Shown here in pieces: positions 22,920-38,100 of a DNA stretch of 64,000 bases. This DNA comes from Sinohyriopsis cumingii. Lineage: Eukaryota > Mollusca > Bivalvia > Unionida > Unionidae. The first letter of the stretch is position 1. Every line of letters starts with the position of its first letter. The position numbers and the translations under genes were made by a program. The notes under the pieces are model-generated. The model did no database searches. It was not told the origin of the DNA and saw only the letters and a program-made list of their open reading frames with translations. The DNA lies in the NCBI GenBank assembly GCA_028554795.2, contig JAPYKE020000559.1, forward strand, positions 1 through 64,000. The letters are read 5' to 3'.

Positions 22920-23319
22920 GCTGTCAGAATAAAAAAGGAATTGCTTGCTTGTCCTTTTTAAAGGAATTTTAAACTTTGTACACACAATATCAAGTTTAAT
23001 AAGAAGAAACACAAGAAGTTGTAAAGTGAATCATGTTGTACTAGTAAACATACTAGTAACAATACTACATGGTTAATTCCTAAACATATTTATTAACAAT
23101 ACCCTATTTCCCACCACTGATTTTGTGTTCTCTAAAACCTGATGTAGTAACAAGACTACATAACTCTCCACTAAACCCTCATAGTAAGAATACCCTAATT
23201 CTAGGCACTGATTTGTTTTCTTCAAAGTCTGATGTAGTAACAATACTAAATATCTCTCCACCAAACCCATGTAGTAATAATAACCTATTTCTAGGCACTG
23301 TATGTGTGATCCCAAAGCC
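22920..23319 (+). repeat. Satellite-bearing dispersed repeat, left of the virus-like element
   Basis: A leader (CTGTCAGAATAAAAAAGG, TTGCTTGCTTGTCCTTTTTA) is followed by roughly 85-90-bp tandem units containing GATGTAGTAACAATACTACA, CTCTCCACCAAACC and TTTCTAGGCACTGATTTTGT. The array continues at 37741 beyond the inserted element, and an inverted copy lies at 45850-46600. Confidence 0.85.
23315..23319 (+). repeat. Target-site duplication, left (AAGCC)
   Basis: AAGCC directly precedes the first base of the left inverted repeat and recurs at 37741-37745 after the right one. Intact satellite units read ATCCCAAAGCCTGATGTAG, so the empty site held one AAGCC. Confidence 0.9.
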
Positions 23320-23576
23320 AGCAGCAGAGGGGGCGAATCGGACATTTTGTCCAATCGTTATTTTGCTTAATTATTACTTTCTGCAACTCAACGATCTAGT
23401 GTCGTCAGCGCCTGGTAAAAAAAAAACGACGTCGTCGTTGGGGGATCGTCCAAACGTCATTTGGTTTAATTAACACCTTCTGCGCGCCGATCCCCAGCGT
23501 CGTCAGCGTCCGGTAAGCACATCGACGACCACGTCGATGTCATTGCCCCTCTGCTGCTAAGTGGTTATTTACAATG
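23320..23576 (+). repeat. Left terminal inverted repeat (257 bp)
   Basis: Matches 37483-37740 in inverted orientation nearly base for base. The exception is a 20-bp segment at about 23435-23455, with minor changes elsewhere (e.g. an extra A near 23387). The outer 239 bp is itself bounded by inverted copies of AGCAGCAGAGGGGGC (23320-23334 and, as GCCCCTCTGCTGCT, 23545-23558). Inside are two imperfect direct modules of about 62 bp and a small palindrome next to each boundary motif. Confidence 0.95.
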
Positions 23577-24423
23577 ATCTTACAAACAGAGTGATCACTA
23601 ACTCCTCCTCTTGCAGATCAATTAGGTTATTTGACTGATCGGTAAGTCTGAAATTAATTCTCGTTAAAAACCGATCATGGCATCGCATATAGACCGGATT
23701 AATCGGACTCTCAATGATCAAAAATCCCGGAGGGGCTGTTGGTGAAAACGAATAAAGGATATACCCCTGTTGAGCTTGATTTGATTGCTTGGTATCTACC
23801 TGGTAACTTCCTTCGATAGCATCACACACTAGATTAATCGCTATCACCGATGCAATATTTACGTTGTACGGGGCAATATGCCTACCACCATCTCCGTTAT
23901 CGTGTCTGAGGATAGTTGATGGGGGGGTGTCCGCGGGTGGATTCTCAGGCCATCCTAGTATGGTTCTTATTGAACTGTTATAAATATCAACCATATACCC
24001 CGGTGTGCTTATTTCAATCGTCGACGATAACGTCGGTTCATGAACCGTAATAGCGATTTTTGATTCCTTTCCTGTGATCGATTTTATCCTGCGTTGAAAT
24101 TCTTTATTGATTTGCTCTATTTGGTATGACCCAGTTGGTATTGTAACCTCCTCCCAGTTTGGGGTCCCATCGGGTTTATTTGTCCGTGCAAAAACCAGCG
24201 AGTTATTAGGTTGTTGTCCGTTAAATGCGTCCGCTCGGATATTAGGCCAACTGTGATATACTCGCAATTTTGCCAGTGCTATTTCCTTTACTGGAACCGG
24301 TGATGGAAAGTTTACACTGAATTCGGGTTTCGTTGACGTTATTGATATCATATTTGTTTGTACCGGAGTGGTGTTCTCCGCGATCCGCTGAAGTAATTGA
24401 AACCCTTCGGGGTTCAGCGACAT
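23569..24423 (-). CDS. Probable minor capsid / penton-like protein
   Basis: A 284-residue protein at the distal end of the minus-strand virion block; its stop codon lies just inside the left TIR. It has no signal peptide or membrane segment and is rich in alternating beta-type segments. One segment (residues about 98-107) reads P-T-G-S-Y-Q-I-E-Q-I. Another near 150-160 reads I-R-T-I-L-G-W-P. The C-terminal half has several Y-x-F and F-L-I-I strands. This pattern resembles jelly-roll-like proteins I associate with invertebrate Polinton-like loci, but I cannot confirm homology. A penton role is inferred from size, context and the separate, larger capsid candidate. Start: ATG preceded by GAATAATAATA, five bases after the neighbouring gene's stop. 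Confidence 0.5.
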   Translation of the reverse strand: MSLNPEGFQLLQRIAENTTPVQTNMISITSTKPEFSVNFPSPVPVKEIALAKLRVYHSWPNIRADAFNGQQPNNSLVFARTNKPDGTPNWEEVTIPTGSYQIEQINKEFQRRIKSITGKESKIAITVHEPTLSSTIEISTPGYMVDIYNSSIRTILGWPENPPADTPPSTILRHDNGDGGRHIAPYNVNIASVIAINLVCDAIEGSYQVDTKQSNQAQQGYILYSFSPTAPPGFLIIESPINPVYMRCHDRFLTRINFRLTDQSNNLIDLQEEELVITLFVRSL

Positions 24424-24428
24424 TATTA

Positions 24429-24965
24429 TTATTCGTTGTCTTTAGTGTCTAATTTCAACAACCAGGTGGTTTCGGCTTCCAGTTGAAAATCCTCGATTTT
24501 TGACATCGCGGAGCTATACAACTGGACCATCGTGGAGAATTCAACATCGGATACGAACAAATTATCAATCGATAACGAGATCAACCCGGATAATTTCGAG
24601 TATGCGTCGGATACTATTTGATGTTTTACTGTATACTCGTTGAGTTTTTTCTGAAAACACGATGATATCTTCCTAGTGATTGCGTTGGCAATTCCAGCAA
24701 CTGTTGTCATTGCGGAGACAGCGATTGGAACAGCGATCGGGGTTATCGTGGTCACCGTGGATAAAATAACACCGGCGCCAGCTACTATACCCGACACCGA
24801 GTACACGACCGCGTCGATGGCGGTTATTTTACGACGGTATTTTTTTATTTTTACACGGTATTGTTCGGAAAGCGTTTTCAAGTTCGCGGAAAATTCTTTT
24901 GCGGTATCGAATCGATATTGATGTGACGTCGGTGATACCTCTGATTCAACTTCCTTGGTGGTCAT
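24429..24965 (-). CDS. Small membrane protein of the virus-like element
   Basis: 178 residues. A basic stretch (about 38-48, rich in K and R) precedes a long Gly/Ala/Val/Ile-rich hydrophobic region (about 52-95) that fits two membrane passes or one re-entrant hairpin. A polar alpha-helical tail follows with a K-H-x-I then D-V-E-F-S-T-M pattern. No enzyme motif is visible. I recall similar Gly-rich membrane proteins with a K-H and E-F helical tail beside other invertebrate virus-like elements, unverified. Upstream lies a TAATT-AAAAAC motif like those before other genes of the element. A role in virion membrane, entry or release is possible but unproven. Confidence 0.6.
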   Translation of the reverse strand: MTTKEVESEVSPTSHQYRFDTAKEFSANLKTLSEQYRVKIKKYRRKITAIDAVVYSVSGIVAGAGVILSTVTTITPIAVPIAVSAMTTVAGIANAITRKISSCFQKKLNEYTVKHQIVSDAYSKLSGLISLSIDNLFVSDVEFSTMVQLYSSAMSKIEDFQLEAETTWLLKLDTKDNE

Positions 24966-25005
24966 TTTTATTTTAAAAGGGCTAGTGTTTTTAATTACTT
25001 AGATT
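24966..25005 (-). promoter_or_regulatory. AT-rich gene-start motif
   Basis: On the coding strand TAATTAAAAACACTAG is followed by TTTTAAAATAAAA and the ATG. It is a variant of the motif upstream of the integrase and the 27411 gene. Confidence 0.4.
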
Positions 25006-26463
25006 CGCTGCAAATTCCACATACCATGTAATGTTTGCCCGGGCTAGATTTCTATCAACGGCATAAATTGTAAACTGTTCAGTTGCGTTCCTGTCTATAA
25101 TTGTTGATATTGTATTGTTAAACCCGGATGAACTCGACGATAATATATTAAACTGCATCATTGAAATCAGTGTCAATCGATAAATGCCCTTAACAGTTGC
25201 GGTGATATTTACTGTATTCTGTGTAGGAGTCCAATCGAATGATCCATGCCGAATTGTGTATACTGTGTTGATGATGTTCTCATGAGGGATTTTTATTTTT
25301 TCAAATTGCTCTGCTACTCTCGGTAGCCCGTCTTTAATCGCTTCAACATCAGTTTTAATCGTTCCTATTTCCTGTATATGCGTGTCCACATCTTTTTTGT
25401 TCGCTGCAACATTAGTTTTGATTGTTTCTATTTCCCGTGTATTCTCGGTTATACTTTTTTTGTTCGCTGCAACATCAAGTTTGATTGTTCCTATTTCATA
25501 TGTATGAACGTCTATACCTTTTTTGTTCGCTGCAACATCAGTTTTGATTAATCCTATTCCCCGCCAATACGCGTCTACATTTTTTTTGTTCGCTTCGACA
25601 TCAGTTTTGATTGTTCCTATTTCCTGTGTATGCGCGTCCACACTCTTTTTGTTTGCTTCAATATCAGTTTTGATTGTTCCTATTTCCTGTGTATGCGCGT
25701 CCATATTATTTATGATCGTTGTAACATCAGTTTTGATTGTTTCTATTTTCCGTCCATGCGAGTCTACATTATTTATGATCGTTGCAACATTAGCGCCGAT
25801 TATTTCTATTTCCCGTTCATGCGCGTCTACACTCCTTTTGTTTGTTGCAACATCAGTTTTGATTGTTTTTATTTCCTGTCCATACGCAGTGATATCATTT
25901 ATAGTTATTGTGATTTCATCCGGCTTGGTATTTTTTTTACCAAGGAATTTATCAAAGTTGTCATCGATCCTGTTAACATTTTTTCGTAACGTGTAAAATT
26001 GGCCCGACAGCGTCGTAAACTCCAAAATAGTATTTTTTATTGTTGCAAGATTTGGTTCGAATACTATCGGGTACCCAAAAAATCTATCGATAGTTGTTTT
26101 CACATGCCCTTCGAGTTCGATCACGGATTCATTCAACCTTATAGTACCGTCTCGGATTAATTCTATCATTCTCTCTATCTCCACTATATGTTTACCTGGT
26201 CTGAGTCGTCCGTCGCTGGTATACAGCGCGATAGTGTTCTCGTCGGCATCACGCTGTCGTATTAAAACATCATTCAGTGACACATTACCGGATTTCAATT
26301 TACCCTGGCGGTCTTGAAATACAACTATTTCATCTGGGTCAACACTGGTTAAGTTCAACGTATCAGCGATTTCATCCTCAATTAGTTTTTTTATGTCATC
26401 GGTGGCGGCTGTTTCCGTGGATTCTTTCAGCGCCGAAACCGATCGTCCCCAAATATCAATCAT
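24991..26463 (-). CDS. Coiled-coil fibre-like protein
   Basis: 490 residues in three parts. Residues 1 to about 190 are a mixed N-terminal region, possibly the capsid-anchoring part. Residues about 192-380 are nine tandem 21-residue units, each three heptads, with Ile, Ile, Val, Asn, Val and His at successive a/d positions. This predicts a long, probably trimeric, coiled-coil shaft. The last 105 residues lack heptads and look like a compact beta-rich head with Tyr, Phe and Trp. A shaft plus C-terminal head is the plan of attachment fibres, so receptor binding is a reasonable inference, not shown by homology. The ATG overlaps the end of the protease gene by 8 bp. Confidence 0.6.
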   Translation of the reverse strand: MIDIWGRSVSALKESTETAATDDIKKLIEDEIADTLNLTSVDPDEIVVFQDRQGKLKSGNVSLNDVLIRQRDADENTIALYTSDGRLRPGKHIVEIERMIELIRDGTIRLNESVIELEGHVKTTIDRFFGYPIVFEPNLATIKNTILEFTTLSGQFYTLRKNVNRIDDNFDKFLGKKNTKPDEITITINDITAYGQEIKTIKTDVATNKRSVDAHEREIEIIGANVATIINNVDSHGRKIETIKTDVTTIINNMDAHTQEIGTIKTDIEANKKSVDAHTQEIGTIKTDVEANKKNVDAYWRGIGLIKTDVAANKKGIDVHTYEIGTIKLDVAANKKSITENTREIETIKTNVAANKKDVDTHIQEIGTIKTDVEAIKDGLPRVAEQFEKIKIPHENIINTVYTIRHGSFDWTPTQNTVNITATVKGIYRLTLISMMQFNILSSSSSGFNNTISTIIDRNATEQFTIYAVDRNLARANITWYVEFAANLSN

Positions 26464-26899
26464 TATTATTGTAAATGTTATTCTCTAAAATCCGTTGAAC
26501 TTCTACGACCCCACTAGTGTATTCGTTTACAACCACATGAGGTGGTTTTCGCGATGATGAAATCGCCGCAAGTACGTTCAATACCTCACGGCCACATATC
26601 GGTGGGTCACTTAATCGCTGTGTTGGCAGCGTGGAATAAAAAACCCGGGCTGAACACGCTCGGATATACCGCATGAACTCTTTCGGCGGGGCTAACCCGT
26701 ATGAATCAAAATAGACGATTGCACGCGGATCAATCGCGTATGCAACCCAATGAGTTCCCGCTCCGGAGGACCCATCGAGGTTAATTATGCCGGTTTCAAT
26801 ATTCCTTGGTACCGCCGGTAATTGATCCCTCATAAAAACACCTCTGAAGTTTTTTATCGCTAACGCGTTTGCGGCGTCTATTAAATCAAAATTAGACAT
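26456..26899 (-). CDS. Adenain-type cysteine protease
   Basis: Capsid-maturation cysteine protease of the adenovirus/Polinton type. From the chosen start it has 147 residues. The expected order is visible: His50 in G-T-H-W-V-A-Y, Asp65 in Y-F-D-S-Y-G, Gln94 as oxyanion-hole candidate, and Cys102 in P-I-C-G-R-E. It is shorter than adenain, which has about 200 residues. The same frame is open to an ATG at 26980, but that stretch overlaps the end of the preceding gene and translates to low-complexity sequence. The ATG at 26899 starts the conserved part and is preferred. It would cut structural precursors after packaging. It lies between the candidate virion proteins. Confidence 0.8.
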   Translation of the reverse strand: MSNFDLIDAANALAIKNFRGVFMRDQLPAVPRNIETGIINLDGSSGAGTHWVAYAIDPRAIVYFDSYGLAPPKEFMRYIRACSARVFYSTLPTQRLSDPPICGREVLNVLAAISSSRKPPHVVVNEYTSGVVEVQRILENNIYNNND

Positions 26900-26934
26900 T
26901 GGAGTCATTAACTCAGGAGTCATTGACTCCCGAG

Positions 26935-27411
26935 TTAATAAACGGTTCCCGGTAGTCTTAGACCCTTTCCCGAGTACCATGAATACGGGGTTCCCGGTAG
27001 TCTTAGACCCTTTCCGGCCAAGGGTCGTTTTTTTTTGTAGCCTTTCCCGGTTGCCTTCTTCAATGCCATCCCCGCCGCGGTACCAACGGCTCCTAACGCC
27101 GCCGCCTTAGCCACTGCTGGTGCGGCCGCGGCAATCAATGCCGGAATCGCAGCTAACAGCGGAAATATCCCACCGGTCTTTTCCATGTTTTTAATTGCTG
27201 CGGCTGAAAAATCTATTTGAACACCCTTTTTATTCTTCATCGCATCATTGAAATGTTTTATTTGACGCGCCGTCAACGATATCTTATGATTACCACCTGC
27301 CATCTGCGACGGCTTCAGCGTTATTGTGGTCCCGCATTGTTTAGCCGACTTTGATCGTAATTTCTTGACTTGACCATCAGTCAACTCTACACTGACGACA
27401 CTATACGACAT
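26935..27411 (-). CDS. Probable small virion protein with amphipathic/basic tail
   Basis: 158 residues. The N-terminal half repeats a motif of the type L-T-x-x-Q-(V/I)-K-x-(L/F), seen near residues 10-18 and 46-55. A hydrophobic Ala/Leu/Ile/Pro segment (about 82-110) follows, then a Lys-rich tail with two copies of G-K-G-L-R-L-P-G-T. The C-terminus overlaps the open frame upstream of the protease. I recall proteins of this layout in other invertebrate Polinton-like elements. By analogy with adenovirus pVI/pX it could be a membrane-active or core protein cut by the protease, but this is inference. Start: ATG directly after a CGTTTACAATAAA motif. Confidence 0.55.
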   Translation of the reverse strand: MSYSVVSVELTDGQVKKLRSKSAKQCGTTITLKPSQMAGGNHKISLTARQIKHFNDAMKNKKGVQIDFSAAAIKNMEKTGGIFPLLAAIPALIAAAAPAVAKAAALGAVGTAAGMALKKATGKGYKKKRPLAGKGLRLPGTPYSWYSGKGLRLPGTVY

Positions 27412-27443
27412 TTTATTGTAAACGCGTTTTGTGCTTTCAATTA
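27412..27443 (-). promoter_or_regulatory. Conserved gene-start motif
   Basis: Coding strand: TAATTGAAAGC, spacer, GCGTTTACAATAAA, then ATG. It closely matches the region upstream of the integrase start (TAATTGAAAAC ... GCGTTTATAATAA). Confidence 0.5.
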
Positions 27444-28880
27444 CATGTTTTCCACTGGCGCATCAACGATTCTCATTCGTCCACCAACGCCTTCCAACAG
27501 CATTGATTTATCGCTGAGAATGACAGCAACCGCTCTATAATTAACACCAGCCGGGGCTATACGAGCTCGAAAGTGTATATCAACGACGGATTGTCTCGTT
27601 AAATCAAGATGTTCCAGCGAAAAATAATAAATCGGATACAGGTTTTTAAAATCAAGTTGTGATATTTGCAAACCGGTGTCGACGTTTTGATCACGGCTCA
27701 TATACGACAGCAATCGATGGTATACACGTGCAATATGGTTGTCGCCGTAATTAAGCTGTATATCCTCGGATGGTTCCTGTTGTCCGTTTATTCTCAGCGA
27801 AACATCCCTGACTCCTAATTGATCAAATATCATATGGCTGCGTTCTTGACTGCCCAATCGTTCCCTATTCTGCAGCGCTATGAATATATGACGCGGGGCT
27901 GAAACACCTTGTTTTGATGCTAGGTGCCATGTAAACGTATCGGCGACGTTATCCTCTTTAGCATCAGTTGTTACCGCTAGCCAACTCAACAACGATTTCC
28001 CTCCCTGTTCCATAAATGCTAACAATCGTGCTTCCGTGGTAACTGATGGAGTCAGCACCGGCATCCACAATGCCATTTTAGTTAAAACGACTTTACCGGC
28101 AGCGACGCCAGCAGCATGCCATATTGCATTGTTATCATCGCCCCTTCGCGTCAGCGCGATTGTATGCTTAGCCCCATAGACAACTTTTCTGACATTTCTG
28201 CAGAATCCAAATATGTGATGGAGTGGAATCGCGCATGAAAACTGTCGGCGTGGTCCTTGCAACATTCCTACTCGTGCTGCGAATCCTAGATTGTAATTAT
28301 CGTTAAGACTTTTTATAACAGTGAAATTAGCGCCTGGTTTTGCTCTGCGATCTGGATTGGTTGCTTCATCCTGGTCAATTGTGGCATTTTCTTTTATTAG
28401 CACGTTAACGTACTGAAGATGGTCAGCGTTATTGGTGGTGTCCTTCGAAAACATCATAGATGGGCCCGCCGATCTTGTATAATCATCCGAGTATCTCGCC
28501 AACCCAATTATCGTTGTTGCAACATCAACCTCGCGTTCTATTGATTCAATTTCTCGCCCGTCAATAAGATATCTGGCGCTCTCAAATAACGCCATGATAC
28601 CGTTGTTGACGAAGCCAACTCGAACACGATGGTCATCTGCGTATGGTGCATTATCGGCGGCATTTGTCACGAGTTCTCCCTCGATTTCGATAAACGCTTC
28701 ACACGGCAAAAAATATTTACTGGTATCTTGGACTTGAAGTTCAATTCGCGATCGTAGGTCGGGTTGCGCTGCATAATAAGAATAAAATTGATAATCACGG
28801 ACAGAATCATCCCTGTGCACTGGGGCGTCCATATCAAACGCGGGATCAGCGGTACGCGCAAACATTCTATTATTTATCAT
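27441..28880 (-). CDS. Probable major capsid protein
   Basis: 479 residues, the largest non-repetitive product of the virion block. It lacks enzyme motifs, signal peptide and membrane segments and is rich in predicted strands. The N-terminal part has Y-F-L-P-C-E-A-F-I-E-I-E-G (about residues 56-68) and later V-G-F-V-N-N-G-I-M-A-L-F-E-S-A-R-Y near 87-103. I associate this pattern with a family of capsid-like proteins in invertebrate Polinton-like loci. A double-jelly-roll capsid is expected from length and company (protease, ATPase), but the fold is not visible from sequence alone. First ATG used; a second in-frame ATG lies five codons later. It sits between two candidate minor virion genes with short gaps. 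Confidence 0.6.
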   Translation of the reverse strand: MINNRMFARTADPAFDMDAPVHRDDSVRDYQFYSYYAAQPDLRSRIELQVQDTSKYFLPCEAFIEIEGELVTNAADNAPYADDHRVRVGFVNNGIMALFESARYLIDGREIESIEREVDVATTIIGLARYSDDYTRSAGPSMMFSKDTTNNADHLQYVNVLIKENATIDQDEATNPDRRAKPGANFTVIKSLNDNYNLGFAARVGMLQGPRRQFSCAIPLHHIFGFCRNVRKVVYGAKHTIALTRRGDDNNAIWHAAGVAAGKVVLTKMALWMPVLTPSVTTEARLLAFMEQGGKSLLSWLAVTTDAKEDNVADTFTWHLASKQGVSAPRHIFIALQNRERLGSQERSHMIFDQLGVRDVSLRINGQQEPSEDIQLNYGDNHIARVYHRLLSYMSRDQNVDTGLQISQLDFKNLYPIYYFSLEHLDLTRQSVVDIHFRARIAPAGVNYRAVAVILSDKSMLLEGVGGRMRIVDAPVENM

Positions 28881-28905
28881 GTTGATGTTTTCAATTGAAA
28901 TCCAT
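28881..28905 (-). promoter_or_regulatory. Gene-start motif before capsid candidate
   Basis: Coding strand TTCAATTGAAAACATCAAC precedes the ATG. CAATTG is a palindrome shared with the other motif copies. Confidence 0.4.
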
Positions 28906-29423
28906 CAACGTCGTTTTCGTCGTAAATTCTTTGAATTTAAACCACTCCCCGCTATCGCGTTCATGAGCGCGTTGGTTGCCGCATCGGCGGATGGCGAAGT
29001 CGCCAACGACGGAGTCGTCGCCAACGACTGAGTCGTCGCCAACGACTCTAGTTTTTCTTCCACGGCGTTATTTATTACTTTACTGACATTTGCAGGCATC
29101 ACTGTCGTTGATGGCATTACCGGTGGTTTCTGTTTTCTTTTTGAAAATCTCTTGGATTTCACCAACGACATTAGTTTGTCTCGTGCGGCAGAAAACGCCC
29201 TTCCGGCAACATCTCCAATGGCACTAATACCCTTATCACGAATAACATCAATAGCCTTCATTCCTAATTGTTTGGCTAACGGCGCTACTTTTGGAGCCAT
29301 TCTTGTAAATAACCCCGCAATGGTGCTACCGAGACCATCTCCATAGTACGCGCGGTAAATAGGCAATCGCGAGTTTACCACGTAGACGAGTACTGGTTTA
29401 TCATGGTTGTAGTGTATGATCAT
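28905..29423 (-). CDS. Probable small virion protein, basic C-terminus
   Basis: 172 residues from the chosen ATG (M-I-I-H-Y-N). The frame extends five codons upstream only from a GTG, which is unlikely to start a eukaryotic gene. Residues about 28-75 form a Gly/Ala-rich amphipathic region beginning Y-Y-G-D-G-L-G. Then come a basic patch (K-S-K-R-F-S-K-R-K-Q-K), a low-complexity triplication of S-L-A-T-(T/S)-(P/Q), and a basic C-terminus (L-R-R-K-R-R). It sits directly before the capsid candidate. Composition resembles core or pVI/pX-like proteins of adenovirus relatives; function is unproven. Confidence 0.5.
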   Translation of the reverse strand: MIIHYNHDKPVLVYVVNSRLPIYRAYYGDGLGSTIAGLFTRMAPKVAPLAKQLGMKAIDVIRDKGISAIGDVAGRAFSAARDKLMSLVKSKRFSKRKQKPPVMPSTTVMPANVSKVINNAVEEKLESLATTQSLATTPSLATSPSADAATNALMNAIAGSGLNSKNLRRKRR

Positions 29424-29455
29424 CCTTATTAAAAACACCAGTTTTCCAATTAATC
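29424..29455 (-). promoter_or_regulatory. Gene-start motif
   Basis: Coding strand TTAATTGGAAAAC, spacer, TTTTTAATAAGG, ATG. A variant of the element-wide motif. Confidence 0.4.
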
Positions 29456-30391
29456 ATCCACGAGTTCGTCTATGAGCGTTCGATATGCATTAATGTCCAT
29501 AATACCGCCTGCAAATAACCGCTTGCAAATATCAGCGGCTTCATTGATTATTTCCGGAGAGTTATTTCCGGCTCGTTTTCCTCCAATTAGTACCTCTAGC
29601 CGTGATATATCACTGAGAACACTACCAGGACAGGTAACGCCGTAGGATTCTTTACCAACAGAGTATCCTTTTCCTTTTTTTGGTGTTATACTCTTAACTT
29701 CCTTGTGGAATGCGTCGTAATCGGATTTACTACGATGTGGTAATGCATCTTTATGTTTACTCGCTAAATACACTATTCTTGCCCAGTCCTTTAACGACTT
29801 TATATTTTTCTCGTAACCGCTATTGATATGCTTCTTATCTCGTATGCTCTTAGCAAAATTGTTGGCAGCAAAATTAATTAATTCTTTCCTGTTGCTGAAG
29901 CCTCTAATTTCATCTATTGTGCTCTTCTTGAGTACAATACGGGGTATATTCCCCTCTTTTTCTTCCGGTATTTCTTCTTCTGGTGTTTCTTCGGGTATTT
30001 CTTCTTCTGGTTCTTTCGCAGTAGCGCCTAGTTCTTCCTCGTCGGCCATTGTAACATAAGGTTCTTGTGGTTCGGTTATAGCGAGTGGTGGTGGTCTCCG
30101 TGTTGTAGCAGCCGCTATTTTTGCAGGGAGTGTTTCTAAAGACCTTTTTGTTTGTTCGGTCTGAGCCGCTATCTTTTCAAGCGCACCAAGAACGGGTACA
30201 GTTACCGCCGTAACATCCTTAGTCGCTTTAGTTACCGGGGCAAATAACTGTTCACTTCCAACAGCAAAATCAGTTTGCATTTGTTGTCGCGTTTGAAGTT
30301 TCTCTCTCACTCTGTCTCGTAACGGTATAAACTTTCTAAGCGCTGCTAGCCGCTCTCTGGCTAGCCGAGTAGTAAGTGATTCACCTACCAT
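29450..30391 (-). CDS. Unknown structural-block protein with acidic linker
   Basis: 313 residues, no recognised family. The N-terminal third is basic and helical. A Pro-rich turn near 97-103 (R-R-P-P-P) leads to a strongly acidic linker of E-E-I-P-E-E repeats (about 115-150). The C-terminal domain (about 155-313) has K-x-L-x-D-W-A-R-I-V-Y-L and ends with A-G-N-N-S-P-E-I-I-N-E-A. It lies in the minus-strand virion block, 22 bp from the next gene, so a scaffold or minor virion role is possible. The ATG follows GCAATTACAATA. Confidence 0.6.
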   Translation of the reverse strand: MVGESLTTRLARERLAALRKFIPLRDRVREKLQTRQQMQTDFAVGSEQLFAPVTKATKDVTAVTVPVLGALEKIAAQTEQTKRSLETLPAKIAAATTRRPPPLAITEPQEPYVTMADEEELGATAKEPEEEIPEETPEEEIPEEKEGNIPRIVLKKSTIDEIRGFSNRKELINFAANNFAKSIRDKKHINSGYEKNIKSLKDWARIVYLASKHKDALPHRSKSDYDAFHKEVKSITPKKGKGYSVGKESYGVTCPGSVLSDISRLEVLIGGKRAGNNSPEIINEAADICKRLFAGGIMDINAYRTLIDELVDD

Positions 30392-30413
30392 TATTGTAAT
30401 TGCTCCGTAATTT

Positions 30414-30794
30414 CTAATTTTCCGCCGAGTGTACCATCGGGGGTTCCACGGAGTTTTCGTCTATAATCCTTCTAATGTTTTTAATTTTATTAGAGATTTC
30501 TCGACGTCGTTCATAAACACGCCCGAGTTTTTTTCGTATTATTTCAACGGCAGTAAATAGTCCAATGAATGCATTTGCGTCATTGTGGTACAAGTTTTCA
30601 TTGATCGTATGTTGTAATCGTTTTATAAAAAAGTACTCGCGGGCCAGGGTAAAACGCCCCCGTTTCGACTGTTCGTTAATAATCTCATAATCGGATAATA
30701 TTTTTTCACTGTCAAGACCATCAGATAATTCAATTCCTTGATTTTTTAATTTTGAAATCTCGGCTAATATATTATTGATGTCTTCGATATTCAT
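30414..30794 (-). CDS. Unknown small helical protein
   Basis: 126 residues, charged and almost entirely helical by composition (many Glu, Lys, Arg, Ile), with no Cys and no membrane segment. No recognised family. It is the first gene of the minus-strand virion block after the HNH gene. The ATG follows AAGAATA, and a TATTTAAA-containing AT-rich stretch lies 15-40 bp upstream. Confidence 0.55.
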   Translation of the reverse strand: MNIEDINNILAEISKLKNQGIELSDGLDSEKILSDYEIINEQSKRGRFTLAREYFFIKRLQHTINENLYHNDANAFIGLFTAVEIIRKKLGRVYERRREISNKIKNIRRIIDENSVEPPMVHSAEN

Positions 30795-30900
30795 TATTCT
30801 TATAAAACATCTTGTTTTTAAATAAAAAAAAATGAAACCCCGTGTATCAATTCCGAAGGTGTGTTAAGTATTAAACAGACAATTTGTCACGGTGACCTTG
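30795..30900 (-). promoter_or_regulatory. Longest gene-free gap in the element
   Basis: The only interval near 100 bp between genes of the element. It contains an A-run and TATTTAAAAACAAG on the minus strand, a plausible promoter for the virion block. It also separates the HNH gene, whose presence may be optional. Confidence 0.35.
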
Positions 30901-31407
30901 TCACTCATTGATTTCTGTTATATATGAAAATCGAATTCTGTGATCCGTCTTTTTTGAAATCGCTGAATTCTGTATTCCTTCTGCTACTCTTCGTATTGAG
31001 GCCTTACAAATGTCAAAGTATTTTCCTGCCGCATACATGGAGTGAAATGTTTTTTCCTCGTGCGTTGATGTATTAAACGATTTGACACCTTTTGCTTTCT
31101 TTGGGTATTTACCGGTTTGGCCTTTTTTAATATTTTCGCTCTGAGAGATGGCTTGCAAGTTTATAAGAGAATTATCAGTCTTATTATTATTAATATGATC
31201 AATCACAAGTCCATTTTCGATTAATCCGTTGAATACCTCAAATACCGCCCTATGAACATAATACTTCTTCTTTCCGGCACCAAACATTAAATACCCCCGA
31301 TTATTCACGGTACCAACCGGCTTCTTCAGTTTGCGGTTTCTAACAATACCGTCGCGAGATGCCTCGTAATTAACGAGCACGGGATGCGGCTGAAATTCTT
31401 GGTCCAT
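30901..31407 (-). CDS. Free-standing HNH homing-type endonuclease
   Basis: 168 residues. Order: an N-terminal NUMOD4-like segment (N-Y-E-A-S-R-D-G-I-V-R-N, about 13-24), an HNH core (V-H-R-A-V-F, then V-I-D-H-I-N-N-N and L-I-N-L-Q, about 51-95), and a C-terminal helix-turn segment (Y-A-A-G-K-Y-F-D-I, about 125-145) like the NUMOD1 repeat. This family cuts DNA at defined sites and usually spreads by homing. Here it is not inside an intron; it lies between the Cys-rich gene and the virion block. A broken homologue holds the same place in the second element (62978-63578), so it was present in a common ancestor. Confidence 0.8.
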   Translation of the reverse strand: MDQEFQPHPVLVNYEASRDGIVRNRKLKKPVGTVNNRGYLMFGAGKKKYYVHRAVFEVFNGLIENGLVIDHINNNKTDNSLINLQAISQSENIKKGQTGKYPKKAKGVKSFNTSTHEEKTFHSMYAAGKYFDICKASIRRVAEGIQNSAISKKTDHRIRFSYITEINE

Positions 31408-31420
31408 TTGTATAATAATA

Positions 31421-31744
31421 CTACTTGTCTAATTTATTATTTGGTTTAATTATAAATCTTTCAACGTAGTCTTGGGGGGTTTTGATGACGAAGTCTGCGG
31501 TGGGGTCAATGACGGCGTTTTTAATTCGCTTGTCATAATAGCGTTTTAGTTCCCTGTATCGCTTTCCGCCACAATTAATACACAACTGCGATTTTCCTCT
31601 TACACCAACGTGACAAACCAAGCACGGGAGGGGGCCAAGAGAACCATTACGAACGCTTTGTAAATGATACCCGCAGAATTCACCTCTACATGATTTATTG
31701 CACGGGGTTATCGACCCAATCATCAACCATTTGCAGTGATTCAT
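31421..31744 (-). CDS. Cys-rich zinc-binding protein
   Basis: 107 residues from the chosen ATG (M-N-H-C-K-W). An ATG six codons upstream (31762) is also possible. Conserved metal-ligand candidates are Cys4, Cys15, Cys19, Cys24, His27, then Cys41, Cys44 and Cys55, Cys58, forming two or more zinc sites. The decayed homologue at 62645-62963 keeps these. It starts head-to-head with the polymerase gene with about 40 bp between. No known enzyme activity; nucleic-acid binding or regulation is a guess. Confidence 0.65.
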   Translation of the reverse strand: MNHCKWLMIGSITPCNKSCRGEFCGYHLQSVRNGSLGPLPCLVCHVGVRGKSQLCINCGGKRYRELKRYYDKRIKNAVIDPTADFVIKTPQDYVERFIIKPNNKLDK

Positions 31745-31783
31745 TATACTATATTCTTTCATTTAAATACTTGTTTTAATTAT
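31745..31783. promoter_or_regulatory. Divergent promoter between Cys-rich and polymerase genes
   Basis: Only about 39 bp separate two divergent start codons. The sequence is nearly pure A/T (TTTAAATAC, TTTTAATTATATGG), so it must serve both directions unless transcripts start inside genes. Confidence 0.5.
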
Positions 31784-34700
31784 ATGGATGAGTTCGAGAG
31801 ATTGGCAGCAATTAAGCCCTGGAAAAATATTAAATTCAATCTCGATAGAGTCCTCAAGGACACACCAAAAGCGTTAATAAACGATAGAACCCTGTTGAGT
31901 AAAATACGCGATTGTATCAATGAATTCAAGCGTGATGGTGCATCTCATAGTTGGTCAACATTTCGAATTGATGGCGTTGTTGATGCTACCATGAACGACA
32001 ACCGCGCAGCAACGATAATATCACAACTTGACGGTAAAAGGTATTTCTTCAGAGTAAAATTCATTGTCCGGGTGGAATCAGGCGATTGGATCATACGTGA
32101 TAAATTTGAACCAGTTCTCAGCGACATGAAAACAGTCACTGTCAGCCGCGACTCCAAGCCGGGGTTGTTAACCGGAATTGATAGACCATACTATGAACGA
32201 GCGTATCCTGAAACAGCAGTTGTTTATGGAATATACCCGTTAAATAAGAAACCTGATATCGGAAAACTGAAACCGATGAAACAGTCAACTGGGATAAATT
32301 GTGTAGCAGAACGAATAATAGAGCATTTTACAAATGCATGTCGAGGAAACAAATTGACTGATTTACGACGCAGCAAAATCAACCAGTGGGAACTAACCGT
32401 AAAAGAGCGTGGAGCAACCATCAGCGACATAGCGAGATTAGAAACATCGCTGAGATTTCCAATAACCGTTACAACGATAACCGGTGAAGTATTATACGAA
32501 TCGAAGTATAAATCGAAGGGAACCCCAATCAAAATTATTGATCATAACGAACACGCATGGACGCCCGCGATCACAATATTTCCACGGGATAGAACAGTAA
32601 AGTATATACCCGAAGAATTCCTGGGAGAACAATTCTCCCGGGATGGTTTTCTCGCGGAGAGGAAACTATTTGATGCTATTGCCTACTTGTGTAAAAACGA
32701 CCCTGTATCAGTGTGGTTACTTCGCAGCGCTGAAAACGATGCGGATACCTTTGATCAGTTTGTAAGACCAAACGGCGAATTATATCGCACTGAAGCATTT
32801 CACAACAGGATGAAAAAAACCGCCATAGAATTTGAGGAGCATGATGAACAACTGCTAACAAATTGTTTTACGATTCCATCGGTTGTAGCTCATGTTGCAG
32901 CAAGGAAAAATGCGTGGAGACCAACGCGCAAGGAATTTCTGCCGGATGTACAATCCAGTTGTTTGGAATACTATCACGGTGGACTATGGAACACTGAATA
33001 CAACCGCGACGCTATGATTTCCGTTGATATGGTTGCCTGTTATCCAGCGAGTTTTCTCGGGTATGGATCCGCCGCTGAGTATTTCAAACGATTTGGACAC
33101 CCCAGTCATGAAATGACTCGTGTTGCTATTAATGGACCACTGCCTGATTTTGATTTAACCGGATTCGCTCGCATAGTATCATTTGAATTCGCGGCAGGAC
33201 TTCATCGCTGTTGCTATATTTGGATCGGTAGACACATGAATGAAAAGAAGTGGCTGCCAATAGCGCTGCTACGGTATATGATTGATTGTAAAATGCTAGT
33301 TTCGTTGATTGTCAGTGACGCGATTATATCATACCGGGCGCAGACTGAAGTCTGGTTACCAGAACCAGAGCGTCTAGATAGCATAATTGACGAATCCAGA
33401 AAACACATTGATGCCGACGAGGAATATATCATCGAATGGTCCAGGAGGATATTTAACCAACGAAACCGCGAGGCAAAAGATCTCGGTAGAAGAATAATCG
33501 GTAAGTTCACACAAGGTGGAAAAAACTGCGATTACAAACGATATTGCTCACGGCTGATTATAGATGACGCAGAATATGATTTCGTAATCAAGGACGCAGT
33601 GGCAAAAAATAGATACGTGAACTGCAAAACAGCTTTCTTGTCCAATGGAACAAAGTTGGGTACAGTTGTTACCTACAGCGATGGAGACAGCCCGGCGTAT
33701 CCACATTTGAGGGCGTCTATGCTGGGTTATGCCGCTATCAATTTATTCTCGATGATAAATAGATTCCCCGATACCGCGGTTAGAGTAGCCGTCGATTCAT
33801 TTTATATAGACGCGATGTATAAGGGAAACATAGCCGAGTTTACTAGTCCGGACGAGAGTTGGGGTACATGGAGAATTAAAAATGAAATACGACGCGATTA
33901 TTCACCATCAGCAGATGTCACCGTTGAGAACGACTACTTACGCGGTGATAAATTATCAGAATGGTCTAATGCACCACCGTGTTCTGATCCAATTTGTAGA
34001 CACAAGACGGTTTATTTAAGCGGCTGTGGCGGGTCAGGAAAGACGACTCGGGCAATTGAATTATTTCGAACGCGGGCAAGTATAATCGTGCTTACACCGA
34101 CCCATAGACTAGCGCGAGAGATAAAACAACGAAATGTTGACGCCGTTACTTATCACAGCTTCTTTCGATACAGCGGCGGTGAGTGGACTCCTGATCGAAT
34201 GGGTGAAAAATTTATTCCCGACATTATCATCTGGGATGAGATATGTACTGTTTCGTTAGATACTTTACAAATGTTTCTTGAGTGGTTGCTGCGCGCGAAT
34301 ACAGCGGTAATCATGTGTGGGGACCATGGCCAACCACCACCATTTGTCGGCGAGGGTCCACATGATTGGTTAAGGGGTTTTGTGGACTATTATGAAGAAA
34401 CCGATACTGATTACCGAGCACTTGATGAACAACTGCGCGAGGTTAAAAAACTAATCAGATTACAGCCGGATAAAATTCAATGTGAAATAATTCGCGAGGT
34501 AATTCCGGAAACGCCGTTAAATGAATTCTGGGAAACATGGAGACCAAACGATTTGATTGTAGCGAGTAGAAAGATAGTCAGAGACACACTTCAGCGGAAG
34601 TTGTTTGCGTTGCATAAGGAAAAGTTTCCAACGCGCCCAGTGCCGTTGTGTTATAGACCCGCTGACACACGGCGGCAGAACATTGAAGTTGAAATTCCAG

Positions 34701-35287
34701 CCCCGACAGCGTCAGGGACAAAAAAACAAATTCTCGTGCTGAATGATATCGTGCTCGTTGATATCGGTGTCGTCGAGGACGCGCTACGTGCTGATAAATC
34801 CCCGTGGACGCTAGGATACGCAACAACAATACATTCCTCGCAGGGACTGACCATCACGGACACAATTGTTTGGATAGTTGATAATCGCATCGAATGGTCG
34901 AATCTAGTCTATCTTGCAGTGTCCCGAGTACGAAGGATAAATCAGCTTCGAAGAATTGTTATTGACGAAGCCAGTGACGGAGTCACTGACGAAGCCGGCG
35001 ACAAAGTCACCATCGATGCAAGCGTCATTGATAGAAAACTCTCGGGTTACCGCCAACAGGATAAAAAAAAACAGCGGCATTTTGATATTGATGCCGAATT
35101 AATAATTGCGTTACGACAACAACAGAATAATCACTGCGCGAGTTGTAATTGTGTAATGCGCTGGCGTTATTCGGATAAAGACGCTCGCCAATTTACCGTG
35201 GACAGGATCGATAACAGTCTCGGTCATGTCAAAAACAATGTGAGGTTGACCTGTCTTGAGTGCAATAGACGCAACGGCGCTAGTTAA
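31784..35287 (+). CDS. DNA polymerase B-like / SF1 helicase / HNH fusion protein
   Basis: 1167 residues from M-D-E-F; the decayed copy also starts M-E-E-F. Residues 1 to about 400 include a conserved block near 169 (G-I-N-C-V-A-E-R-I-I-E-H-F). Polymerase-like motifs follow: A (V-D-M-V-A-C-Y-P, about 414), a B-like I-G-K-F-T-Q-G-G-K (about 570), and C (A-V-D-S-F-Y-I, about 668), where the first Asp of the usual D-T-D-S is lost. An SF1 helicase of Pif1/RecD type follows: Walker A G-C-G-G-S-G-K-T (about 747), W-D-E-I (about 816), G-D-H-G-Q-P-P-P-F (about 845), H-S-S-Q-G-L-T (about 1016). A C-terminal HNH-like zinc domain lies at about 1118-1167. No clear 3'-5' exonuclease is seen. It presumably replicates the element. 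Confidence 0.85.
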   Translation: MDEFERLAAIKPWKNIKFNLDRVLKDTPKALINDRTLLSKIRDCINEFKRDGASHSWSTFRIDGVVDATMNDNRAATIISQLDGKRYFFRVKFIVRVESGDWIIRDKFEPVLSDMKTVTVSRDSKPGLLTGIDRPYYERAYPETAVVYGIYPLNKKPDIGKLKPMKQSTGINCVAERIIEHFTNACRGNKLTDLRRSKINQWELTVKERGATISDIARLETSLRFPITVTTITGEVLYESKYKSKGTPIKIIDHNEHAWTPAITIFPRDRTVKYIPEEFLGEQFSRDGFLAERKLFDAIAYLCKNDPVSVWLLRSAENDADTFDQFVRPNGELYRTEAFHNRMKKTAIEFEEHDEQLLTNCFTIPSVVAHVAARKNAWRPTRKEFLPDVQSSCLEYYHGGLWNTEYNRDAMISVDMVACYPASFLGYGSAAEYFKRFGHPSHEMTRVAINGPLPDFDLTGFARIVSFEFAAGLHRCCYIWIGRHMNEKKWLPIALLRYMIDCKMLVSLIVSDAIISYRAQTEVWLPEPERLDSIIDESRKHIDADEEYIIEWSRRIFNQRNREAKDLGRRIIGKFTQGGKNCDYKRYCSRLIIDDAEYDFVIKDAVAKNRYVNCKTAFLSNGTKLGTVVTYSDGDSPAYPHLRASMLGYAAINLFSMINRFPDTAVRVAVDSFYIDAMYKGNIAEFTSPDESWGTWRIKNEIRRDYSPSADVTVENDYLRGDKLSEWSNAPPCSDPICRHKTVYLSGCGGSGKTTRAIELFRTRASIIVLTPTHRLAREIKQRNVDAVTYHSFFRYSGGEWTPDRMGEKFIPDIIIWDEICTVSLDTLQMFLEWLLRANTAVIMCGDHGQPPPFVGEGPHDWLRGFVDYYEETDTDYRALDEQLREVKKLIRLQPDKIQCEIIREVIPETPLNEFWETWRPNDLIVASRKIVRDTLQRKLFALHKEKFPTRPVPLCYRPADTRRQNIEVEIPAPTASGTKKQILVLNDIVLVDIGVVEDALRADKSPWTLGYATTIHSSQGLTITDTIVWIVDNRIEWSNLVYLAVSRVRRINQLRRIVIDEASDGVTDEAGDKVTIDASVIDRKLSGYRQQDKKKQRHFDIDAELIIALRQQQNNHCASCNCVMRWRYSDKDARQFTVDRIDNSLGHVKNNVRLTCLECNRRNGAS

Positions 35288-36224
35288 GACCACGCGGGGG
35301 TAATTGAGTATCGTTAGGTATCACTTGTAGTTGCTCGCGTGTAAATCCGCGCTGAGGAGCAGTTGAATCCAGTCTATAGATCGGTGGTCTACCAGTTGAT
35401 CGTGTTATCGTTGATATGTTATGTGTGGTAACACTCCAAATAGGATCAGTAGCTCTTTTTTTACCGCCTTCAAGCTCTCCTGGTTCATATAGATATCTCA
35501 CGGTAACATCGCCGAGAATCGGCTTGGAAACGCTATTTATTTTTGATTTTCCGGGTATATACTCGTATTTAATCGCGTCGCTGGGCTTCATGTTGATTGC
35601 TCGGGTAATCTCGTTATTTAACGCTGCAATTACGCCTGGCAACCTTTTAACCCATTCACGAGATCGTTTTTCTTGGATGAATTCCTTCGCGTATTGATAT
35701 CCAAATAACCGTTCAGCAAGAGTCCGATTGAATCGTTCAACAATTGCCTGATCACGATGTAGCGCAGTATGACCTCGTCGTATCGCGACGCTATGATGTT
35801 TCAGCGTTGATAAAACAGCGCCGCGAAATTCACTACCGGGATCAACTTGTAATAGATTTGGCCAGCGCAGAGGGTCTCTTCGATAAATTCTTTCAAACGC
35901 AGCGGCTACTTCAGTTGCCGACTTTGTTTTTAACGGCTCCGCTTGTTTGTATCGACTCGCAACATCAACTACGGTTAGCGCGTATTTGTAACCGTTGTCA
36001 TGCGGCAAAAATAGTATATCAGCCTGATGAACTTCATTAGGTACGCTGACATCAAAGCGCGAGAAGTTGATTTGTTTAGGCGGTGGTAGATAGATTTGCC
36101 ATATAGCCTGTTTGGATAACCAATTAGCCGCAGTGGTCTTTGTTACCTTTGCAGCGCTTGCAAGCTTACCAATTGCGGCCTTCCCCTTCCAGTATCCTCT
36201 CGGAGAATAATAGATGGATTCCAT
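35280..36224 (-). CDS. Retroviral-type DDE integrase
   Basis: 314 residues from M-E-S-I-Y-Y. Integrates the element DNA. The N-terminal helical domain has Y-W-K-G-K-A-A and I-Y-L-P-P-P-K. The rve core has Asp69 (H-Q-A-D), Asp128 (V-D-P-G-S-E-F) and Glu163 (I-V-E-R-F-N), a D,D(34)E spacing. The C-terminal domain (about 235-314) carries V-R-Y-L-Y, then R-A-T-D-P-I-W-S, as in Polinton integrases. The frame is open 19 codons upstream, but that part overlaps the PLA2 gene. The conserved gene-start motif, and the start in the second element, support this ATG. Its stop overlaps the polymerase stop by 8 bp, tail to tail, in both elements. Confidence 0.9.
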   Translation of the reverse strand: MESIYYSPRGYWKGKAAIGKLASAAKVTKTTAANWLSKQAIWQIYLPPPKQINFSRFDVSVPNEVHQADILFLPHDNGYKYALTVVDVASRYKQAEPLKTKSATEVAAAFERIYRRDPLRWPNLLQVDPGSEFRGAVLSTLKHHSVAIRRGHTALHRDQAIVERFNRTLAERLFGYQYAKEFIQEKRSREWVKRLPGVIAALNNEITRAINMKPSDAIKYEYIPGKSKINSVSKPILGDVTVRYLYEPGELEGGKKRATDPIWSVTTHNISTITRSTGRPPIYRLDSTAPQRGFTREQLQVIPNDTQLPPRGLN

Positions 36225-36256
36225 GTTGTTATTATAAACGCTATCGTTTTCAATTA
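36225..36256 (-). promoter_or_regulatory. Conserved gene-start motif before integrase
   Basis: Coding strand TAATTGAAAAC, spacer, AGCGTTTATAATAA, then CAAC and ATG. Best match is the 27412-27443 site. Confidence 0.5.
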
Positions 36257-36600
36257 CCAGCGCCAGAAGCTCCGCTTCCAATCATTAATTTACCTTTCAT
36301 AGCCGATTTTACCAACCATGAGGCCAATTTTTCTTTGACGGATTTATCAGGAATAGCATTTAATGCGTGAATTAATTTTACATCCGCGATATGACGCTGT
36401 TGCAGATCGCTACTTTTGTAAGCAACATCATGAGCATGACACGCCTTATCGATAGCGTTTATTGGATACTCACCGGGTTTGGGCTGATTTTGATCATCGA
36501 GTCTAATATCTAATCGTGTTCCGGGGCCACAGTAGCTATATCCTGGGAGGTGTTTTTCTCCTGGATACTTTGCCCACGGTGTTCCGGGGAGTTTTGCCAA
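36250..36600 (-). CDS. Parvovirus-type phospholipase A2 protein
   Basis: 116 residues. Shows the calcium-loop motif Y-C-G-P-G-T (about 23-28) and the catalytic D-K-A-C-H-A-H-D-V-A-Y (His57-Asp58), followed by Asp73 in I-A-D-V-K-L. This is the short secreted-type PLA2 plan of parvovirus VP1 and related virus-like elements, where the lipase helps particles leave endosomes. Here it is a separate gene between the zinc-ribbon and integrase genes. It has no signal peptide, which fits a virion-carried enzyme. Its 5' part overlaps the 3' end of the zinc-ribbon gene by about 90 bp in another frame. A decayed homologue lies at 58005-58249. Confidence 0.8.
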   Translation of the reverse strand: MAKLPGTPWAKYPGEKHLPGYSYCGPGTRLDIRLDDQNQPKPGEYPINAIDKACHAHDVAYKSSDLQQRHIADVKLIHALNAIPDKSVKEKLASWLVKSAMKGKLMIGSGASGAGN

Positions 36601-36788
36601 TTTGGCTGCGATGTCACCTCCTCGCTTTTTTTTAAAACATCTCCGGGTCTAATAGAAATAAATCTAAATTTCTTTGTACCGCATTGTACACACTTACCAG
36701 TAAGCGCCGATCTGTTATTTCTTGTTGTAGCGGTTGTCATATCATTTGTGCCAGTACGCACTCTGCACTTCACACAATATAGATCCAT
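36510..36788 (-). CDS. Zinc-ribbon protein (DUF5679-like)
   Basis: 92 residues. The first 45 form a compact zinc ribbon: Cys5-x2-Cys8 (M-D-L-Y-C-V-K-C) and Cys33-x2-Cys36, followed by G-T-K-K-F-R-F-I. This pattern recalls DUF5679, found in several large-virus and Polinton-like settings. The rest is low-complexity, hydrophilic and overlaps the PLA2 gene, so only the N-terminal domain is likely constrained. In the second element (57837-58046) the ribbon is kept while the tail is different. It starts head-to-head with the ATPase gene, five bases apart. Confidence 0.75.
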   Translation of the reverse strand: MDLYCVKCRVRTGTNDMTTATTRNNRSALTGKCVQCGTKKFRFISIRPGDVLKKSEEVTSQPNWQNSPEHRGQSIQEKNTSQDIATVAPEHD

Positions 36789-36793
36789 AATTT

Positions 36794-37468
36794 ATGTATA
36801 GAGATATGAATATAATTGATTTTTCGGCGACTAAAACAAGAGAACCAGTTAAGCATGTTGCAGCGTTACCAAACTCGATCCGGATGATTATCATCGGACC
36901 ATCTGGATCCGGCAAGACGCAATTGTTACTCAATTTAATAATGAGATGGATGAAGTGGGATAAGTTGTATTTGGTTGCTCCTAGCGTAGATGATCAACGA
37001 TGCTACGAGGTGCTGAAAGATTTCAACGAGAATGCATCAGCGATCGCTAAAAAAAATGTTATTGAGTTTATTACGGATATCAATGATGCACCGGGTATTG
37101 ATGATATTGATGGCGACGTTAACAATCTAGTCGTGTACGATGATGTTATGTTAGACAATCAAAAAAACCCAGCTAGGATATTTTCCAGAGGCAGGCATAA
37201 AAACACTGACGTGATATATGTCACTCAACGATACACTCAGATTCCAAAAGTAATTAGAGACAACTGTAATATTCTTGCTGTGTTCAACGGCGTTGATACA
37301 CACACGCTACGAAATATTTGGCAGACATGGTGCGGCGGTGACATGGACTTTAATGTTTTTCGAAACTTTTTTAGTCATGCTCAGTCGACCCCACATGGAT
37401 TCGTAACGATAAATTTACATGATCCTCGGACACGATATCGTATCGGACTTGACCAAATATTCGGTTAG
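36794..37468 (+). CDS. DNA-packaging ATPase (FtsK/HerA, A32-like)
   Basis: 224 residues. P-loop NTPase with Walker A G-P-S-G-S-G-K-T (35-42) and Walker B hydrophobics followed by Asp116-Asp117 (V-V-Y-D-D-V). A later Y-V-T-Q-R-Y-T-Q segment with a conserved Gln is typical of the sensor region in packaging ATPases. Length and motif spacing match the genome-packaging ATPases of Polintons and nucleocytoplasmic viruses. It would pump the element DNA into capsids. It lies beside the right TIR, only 14 bases away. ATG at 36794 used; 36806 is an alternative. Confidence 0.88.
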   Translation: MYRDMNIIDFSATKTREPVKHVAALPNSIRMIIIGPSGSGKTQLLLNLIMRWMKWDKLYLVAPSVDDQRCYEVLKDFNENASAIAKKNVIEFITDINDAPGIDDIDGDVNNLVVYDDVMLDNQKNPARIFSRGRHKNTDVIYVTQRYTQIPKVIRDNCNILAVFNGVDTHTLRNIWQTWCGGDMDFNVFRNFFSHAQSTPHGFVTINLHDPRTRYRIGLDQIFG

Positions 37469-37482
37469 TTGTAAATAATTTT

Positions 37483-37740
37483 CATTGTAAATAACCACTT
37501 AGCAGCAGAGGGGGCAATGACATCGACGCGGTCGTCGATGTGCTTACCGGACGCTGACGACGCTGGGGATCGGCGCGCAGAAGGTGTTAATTAAACCAAA
37601 TGACGTCACCATCGTGTAGGATGGACCGACGTCGTTTTTTTTTTACCAGGCGCTGACGACACTAGATCGTTGAGTGCAGAAAGTAATAATTAAGCAAAAT
37701 AACGATTGGACAAAATGTCCGATTCGCCCCCTCTGCTGCT
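37483..37740 (-). repeat. Right terminal inverted repeat (258 bp)
   Basis: Inverted partner of 23320-23576. Inner boundary AGCAGCAGAGGGGGC at 37501-37515, outer GCCCCCTCTGCTGCT at 37726-37740. Two direct modules start TTACCGGACGCTGACGAC (about 37543) and TTACCAGGCGCTGACGAC (about 37645) and end in TTAATTAA/AATTAA-type AT stretches. Palindromes ACATCGACG...CGTCGATGT (about 37521-37542) and GGACAAAATGTCC (about 37708-37720) flank them. Confidence 0.95.
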
Positions 37741-38100
37741 AAGCCTAATGTAGTAACAATACTACATAGCTCTCCACCAAACCTATGTAATAATAATACC
37801 CTATATCTAGGCACTGATTTTGTGATCCCAAAGCCTGATGTAGTAACAATACTACATAGCTCTCCACCAAACCTATGTAGTAATAATACCCTATATCTAG
37901 GCACTGATTTTGTGATCTCCAAAGCCAGATATAGTAACAATACTACATAGCTCTCTACCAAACCCATGTAGTAACAATACCCTATTTCTTGGGCACTGGT
38001 TTTGTGATTTCCAAACCTGATGTAGTAACAATACCACATTGCTCTCCGATGCCATAATATTACTTGCTAATGTAGTATTTCTACAGTGTTAAACTTGAAA
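37741..38100 (+). repeat. Satellite-bearing repeat, right of the virus-like element
   Basis: Begins with the AAGCC duplication and continues with three to four units of the array interrupted at 23319. The open frame on the minus strand is translated satellite. Confidence 0.9.

Follow-up and report, generated by a model that had tools for sequence, protein, structure and literature searches.

A probable Tlr1-like polymerase-helicase-HNH replicase in a multicopy Polinton-like element of the freshwater mussel Sinohyriopsis cumingii

Introduction

Proteins in which a protein-primed family-B DNA polymerase (pPolB) is fused to a superfamily 1 (SF1) helicase, termed Tlr1-like helicases or pPolB-S1H, are described from Tetrahymena Tlr1, Polinton-like viruses (PLVs) such as TvV-S1, and transpovirons (PMC11071308). 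They consist of a variable N-terminal or terminal-protein region, a vOTU domain, a palm, an SF1 helicase and a C-terminal GIY-YIG or HNH nuclease. The terminal-protein folds vary among the published proteins, and the palm lacks the first aspartate of motif C; enzymes without this residue have been argued to be active, a trade-off between helicase and exonuclease has been proposed, and the HNH has been suggested to be a homing endonuclease, in an intein-like invasion (PMC11071308). Here we describe a single uninterrupted frame (31784–35287, forward strand) that encodes a pPolB-S1H-HNH fusion replicase of 1167 residues within a 14.4-kb element (23320–37740) of the freshwater mussel Sinohyriopsis cumingii. 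The stretch analyzed, referred to as the window, comprises 64,000 nucleotides (positions 1 to 64,000 of contig JAPYKE020000559.1). It is very likely that the fusion protein serves as replicase to an endogenous virus that multiplies in the mussel genome and is Tlr1-like and Polinton-like, of the pPolB-S1H type.

Other fusions of this general kind are known. PLVs contain SF1 helicases fused to GIY-YIG, as well as helicases fused N-terminally to HNH, and PLV-like elements are reported to accompany entomopoxviruses of Lepidoptera (PMC12220804). A PLV of Oxyrrhis marina also combines an SF1 helicase and pPolB in a single protein, but its helicase is N-terminal and the exonuclease is kept (1486 residues; PMC12721341). 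The PolA-S3H (TVpol) and AEP-S3H proteins of PLVs are likewise polymerase-helicase fusions, but with a family-A or primase polymerase and an SF3 helicase (PMC12220804).

Domain organization and conserved motifs

Pfam and PHROG searches place the SF1 helicase at approximately residues 738–1060 and an HNH or endonuclease VII-like domain at approximately residues 1085–1166, and the predicted structure has a family-B palm upstream of both (Table 1). The presence of all three in one protein bears out the preliminary description of this locus, which was made from the sequence alone. Conserved motifs were compared in an alignment of 13 rows (the window protein included), with a further check in 8 other mussel loci. 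The motif labels follow general usage and PMC11071308.

The motif A aspartate, Asp415, is invariant in all 13 rows. Motif B is shrunk to IGKF (VGKF in P0010). The first aspartate of motif C is replaced, by alanine in ten rows and by threonine in P0010, and the second, Asp671, is kept in all 11 rows that reach this position; first replaced and second kept is also the state of all eight further mussel loci. Upstream of the palm, Cys173 and His257 are both invariant (13/13 rows and 8/8 further loci), as expected for a vOTU protease, for which this region is a candidate. Residues 1–160 have alpha/beta secondary structure, and the predicted local distance difference test (pLDDT) score of residues 31–100 is mostly 70–80 in the full-length model.

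Eight of the 13 rows, window protein included, extend through the C-terminus; in each of these the HNH domain is located at the same place and reads VDR where DH is usual. P0010 ends within the HNH and four rows end before it. The domain is also reached in 7 of the 8 further mussel loci, the eighth having a broken frame, across sequences at about 45% identity. A chance or spurious frame is ruled out by the single 1167-residue frame, by the relatives and by the selective constraint described below.

Predicted structure of the palm region

Residues 1–740 have no Pfam match, even at E 10, and no sequence match in the PDB, so that recognition of a polymerase required structure prediction. Residues 300–735 are predicted to adopt a palm fold, which Foldseek aligns to residues 62–500 of phi29 polymerase; this range would take in the TPR1 and TPR2 subdomains. 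The predicted palm includes residues 400–700, the interval on which the earlier polymerase claim hinged. Since the structural alignment begins at phi29 residue 62, some trace of the exonuclease fold may persist in the modeled protein. A PF03175 search of the fusion protein gave no match, and this result, together with the fused helicase, rules out a canonical adintovirus-type polymerase.

Searching the PDB with the full-length model returned a list filled by helicase matches. The top full-length structural match is a viral protein, H6WBE3, aligned over 1131 columns at a low TM-score. H6WBE3 may belong to a transpoviron.

Ends, copy number and selective constraint

The terminal inverted repeats (TIRs) of the element are about 259 bp long, begin with AGCAGCAG, and are nearly identical, differing in one internal stretch and by small gaps. 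Each TIR is bounded on its outer and inner sides by inverted copies of AGCAGCAGAGGGG, resembling a small unit. An exact 30-base terminus was found 872 times in the forward and 869 times in the reverse orientation in the mussel genome (control, 0), which, assuming two ends per element, corresponds to about 870 elements of one family. All of the first 100 ends in the list lie on one contig (C1), where 92 of them make 46 facing pairs, 44 of which span 14.2–16.0 kb. The complete elements on this contig fall into two length groups, approximately 14.3–14.9 kb and 15.1–15.9 kb.

In ten pairs drawn at random from these 44, the polymerase frame is open across the fetched residues in nine, six of them at full length and three cut off after 961–1019 residues, where the fetched sequence stops; the tenth has a frame break near residue 1100. 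A genome search with the fusion protein gave 40 scored places, 38 without an internal stop and several on contigs longer than 100 Mb. The ends of ten other best-matching copies were also inspected, and perfect 5-bp duplications are present at all eight testable sites (of the remaining two copies, one lies in a head-to-tail array and one has its left end outside the fetched piece).

The ratio of non-synonymous to synonymous substitution rates (dN/dS) is 0.190 among the six full-length copies drawn at random. It is 0.159 among nine of the ten copies that matched best, a set biased by selection on score, from which one copy of different length was dropped. By part, computed on these score-selected copies, the values are 0.097 for the helicase, 0.109 for the vOTU region, 0.159 for the palm, 0.228 for the N-terminal region and 0.258 for the HNH; the short linker ahead of the HNH (residues 1061–1084) has no synonymous change.

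The window copy sits inside an array of an approximately 90-bp repeat (23054–23316 and 37741–38047), which recurs at 46047–46436. Insertion targeted to this satellite can be rejected as a rule, as the repeat was seen at none of the eight other two-ended sites (80 bases per side, inspected by eye); one of these eight lies in a different simple repeat. On contig C2 (34.62 and 34.63 Mb), a head-to-tail array has its element ends joined by identical junctions that lack a few terminal bases. Such joined ends match only one locus in the genome (C2, 34.6 Mb), where the junction occurs twice, which would fit occasional joining of the ends of free linear DNA.

Table 1. Coordinates of the fusion gene, its predicted parts and other features of the window.
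Feature	Position	Strand	Evidence or remark
pPolB-S1H-HNH fusion replicase	31784–35287	+	1167 aa; Pfam, PHROG, predicted structure
Putative terminal-protein (priming) region, alpha/beta, residues 1–160	31784–32263	+	Assigned by position, as in PMC11071308
vOTU-like protease candidate, residues 161–300	32264–32683	+	Cys173 in NCVAxRxxEHF, His257 in HNxHA
Protein-primed family-B palm, residues 300–735	32681–33988	+	Motif A D415, motif B IGKF 572–575, motif C D671
SF1 Pif1/RecD/Dda-type helicase, residues 738–1060	33995–34963	+	GxGGSGKTT, DE, GDxxQPPP, HSSQGL, AVSR
HNH/endonuclease VII-like domain, residues 1085–1166	35036–35281	+	CxxC...VDR...CxxCN
Left TIR	23320–23577	+	Begins AGCAGCAGAGGGGG
Right TIR	37482–37740	-
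Target-site duplication, left	23315–23319		AAGCC, 5 bp
Target-site duplication, right	37741–37745		AAGCC, 5 bp
Retroviral-type (rve) integrase	35280–36281	-	Pfam rve, E 1.9e-8
A32-like DNA-packaging ATPase	36794–37468	+	Pfam Pox_A32, E 5.2e-12
Double jelly-roll (DJR) major capsid protein	27441–28880	-	Pfam DJR-like_dom, E 1.6e-17
Adenovirus-type (C5/Ulp1) protease candidate	26456–26980	-	Pfam Peptidase_C5, E 0.0065, under curated cut-off
Second fusion-gene copy, diverged and broken	59225–62599	-	tblastn pieces

Related families and comparison with known systems

The fusion was correctly proposed to be a lineage trait: besides the second copy in the window, at least five families are present in the genome and twelve relatives in databases. 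A search with the relative P0005 yielded 40 further scored places in this genome, distinct from those of the window protein, with frames of 1070–1244 residues and an internal stop in 5 of 84 matches. Eight of these places were fetched; together with the window family they make up the at least five families, which share 58–75% mutual identity, and all eight retain the Cys and His of the vOTU candidate, motif A and motif C. A relative in an arbuscular mycorrhizal fungus, as mentioned in the preliminary description, is indeed present in the form of P0010, from Diversispora epigaea, on a 252-kb contig. Scans of IMG/VR with the fusion protein and with A2 found no relative, and tblastn of a phage collection gave no match. 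Separate palm and helicase trees, proposed at the outset, agree in splitting the mussel-type rows from P0005–P0010, but differ in their finer branches, which have low support.

Four defining features of the Tlr1-like helicases are present, and none of those examined was contradicted: a downstream SF1 helicase, an upstream pPolB-type palm, the motif C change and a C-terminal HNH. Exonuclease loss, the vOTU domain and the TPR subdomains are candidate further ones. By comparison with published descriptions, the fusion protein is thus a probable member of the Tlr1-like helicases. The domain order is the same, the palm has no recognised exonuclease, motif C lacks its first aspartate and the C-terminal nuclease is of homing type; genes for an rve integrase, an ATPase and a capsid are known from Tlr1 too (PMC11071308, PMC4642659). 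The mussel element differs from Tlr1, as published, in its HNH (GIY-YIG in Tlr1), its animal (unionid) host, its relative in an arbuscular mycorrhizal fungus, and the roughly 870 copies of one family. The fusion itself is therefore not the under-described module that was first suspected, since it is already described as Tlr1-like helicase or pPolB-S1H (PMC11071308), an outcome that the preliminary description had itself named as refuting; the domains, lineage trait, fungal relative and contrast with canonical polymerases all stand.

The element resembles canonical Polintons/Mavericks and adintoviruses in its capsid, protease candidate, ATPase, rve integrase, TIRs, short target duplications and protein-primed palm. 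Of the features of a bona fide Polinton/Maverick, the rve integrase, DJR capsid, ATPase, TIRs and duplication are present, and a stand-alone pPolB with exonuclease is absent. Comparison with the canonical pPolB (PF03175) of the same genome (75 scored places, e.g. L060 and L062) upholds the difference claimed earlier: these frames reach 1363 residues, with an exonuclease part and an intact DTD, but have no helicase or HNH match. The Oxyrrhis-type order is not matched either, as the mussel helicase lies after the palm.

Functional implications

The terminal AGC repeats, which resemble an adenovirus-type start, and a palm of the protein-primed kind suggest, as the best reading of this system, that copying is protein-primed and proceeds by strand displacement with the aid of the helicase, before the rve integrase inserts the product. 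In adenoviruses, replication starts by jumping back at terminal repeats. The mussel element would exit, or be copied, in linear form with a TIR at either end. Synthesis would start at each end from the N-terminal priming region, which would bear the first nucleotide, and the short repeats found there (AGCAGCAG) suit a jumping-back start; the vOTU-like protease may release the primer. The palm would then extend the strand, with the fused SF1 helicase displacing the other strand and standing in for the exonuclease that canonical pPolB has; nicking or resolution of branched DNA is the probable role of the HNH. Insertion of the copy by the integrase would leave the 5-bp duplication, and packaging of the element in virions could follow by means of the capsid genes.

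Several results weigh against this reading. The superposition on phi29 polymerase is loose (TM-score 0.37–0.41, root-mean-square deviation 10–12 Å), the full-length model scores poorly (pLDDT 58.5, pTM 0.31), and full-length matches in BFVD have TM-scores near 0.1. Residues 1–740 have no sequence-level link to any known polymerase family; comparison with the canonical pPolB genes of this genome likewise found no sequence relation (hhalign probability 1.5%; nothing by blastp). Judging from the motifs, polymerase or HNH activity could be lost, because motif B is degenerate and the HNH has DR for DH.

The HNH might be a passenger homing endonuclease, arriving by intein-like invasion as suggested in PMC11071308, and lie outside the replication machine, a possible but doubtful arrangement. 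Its dN/dS is laxer than that of the helicase, the single frame break among the ten random copies falls near residue 1100, and a separate HNH_3 homing-type gene lies nearby (30901–31407). However, its constant position in the complete rows and in seven of eight further mussel loci argues for a stable component of the protein and against a mobile insertion.

It is unlikely that the protein is a helicase-nuclease with a dead polymerase remnant, in which the palm serves as a scaffold and copying falls to host polymerases or to the coexisting canonical Polinton polymerase. The lost motif C aspartate, the degenerate motif B and the canonical pPolB genes in the same genome fit such a remnant, and the title of a 2016 paper by Krupovic et al. 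names the fusion and calls its polymerase inactivated. However, Asp415 and Asp671 are retained in all aligned rows that reach them, the palm region is under constraint, and activity has been argued for enzymes without the same aspartate (PMC11071308). Very unlikely is an independent gain of SF1 helicase and HNH by an animal or fungal Polinton, convergent with Tlr1, transpovirons and PLVs: the hosts (mussel and Glomeromycota) are unlike the published protists and mimivirus parasites, and the Oxyrrhis fusion shows that such a protein can arise anew, in reversed order (PMC12721341), but the domain order, motif C change and choice of C-terminal nuclease are as published for Tlr1-like proteins (PMC11071308), and the top full-length structural match, though of low TM-score, is one viral protein.

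Other features of the window and genome

A 490-residue frame at 24991–26463 contains about eight tandem 63-nt (21-residue) repeats and is a fibre candidate. The separate HNH_3 gene has a weak NUMOD1 match, and its relative at 62978–63382 adjoins the diverged second element. A reverse transcriptase fragment (RVT_1) of an unrelated retroelement is located at 1035–2012. Elsewhere in the assembly, contigs C807 and C1106 carry two strongly diverged mitochondrial COI types, as would be expected under the doubly uniparental inheritance of freshwater mussels. In the 14 top-ranking rows, COI of the assembly matches Unionidae at 96–99% identity.

Significance

Elements of single-celled organisms and parasites of giant viruses are already known to carry this type of fusion; the greater surprise is its presence in about 870 copies in an animal. 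In the publications covered here, this replicase is hosted by protists and by parasites of mimiviruses (transpovirons), and no report of a Tlr1-like helicase in an animal was found in the open-licence PMC text searched; the PLV-like elements that accompany lepidopteran entomopoxviruses (PMC12220804) speak against claiming broadly a first in animals. The evidence is evenly poised on whether these elements form a metazoan-fungal branch of Tlr1-like PLVs, unrecorded in the searched literature, with the HNH fixed in the replicase and at least five mussel families beside canonical Polintons, one of which recently reached about 870 elements, mostly length-complete where sampled, with its replicase under selection. 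If so, this would imply continued self-replication or germ-line infection and not passive transposition. The mussel elements also extend the proposed helicase-exonuclease trade-off (PMC11071308) to elements of one shared host. With hundreds of nearly identical copies that carry capsid genes, next to canonical Polintons in an animal genome of chromosome scale, one could test directly, in an animal that can be sampled, whether the pPolB-S1H palm is an active polymerase, whether the ends are protein-capped and whether particles are formed.
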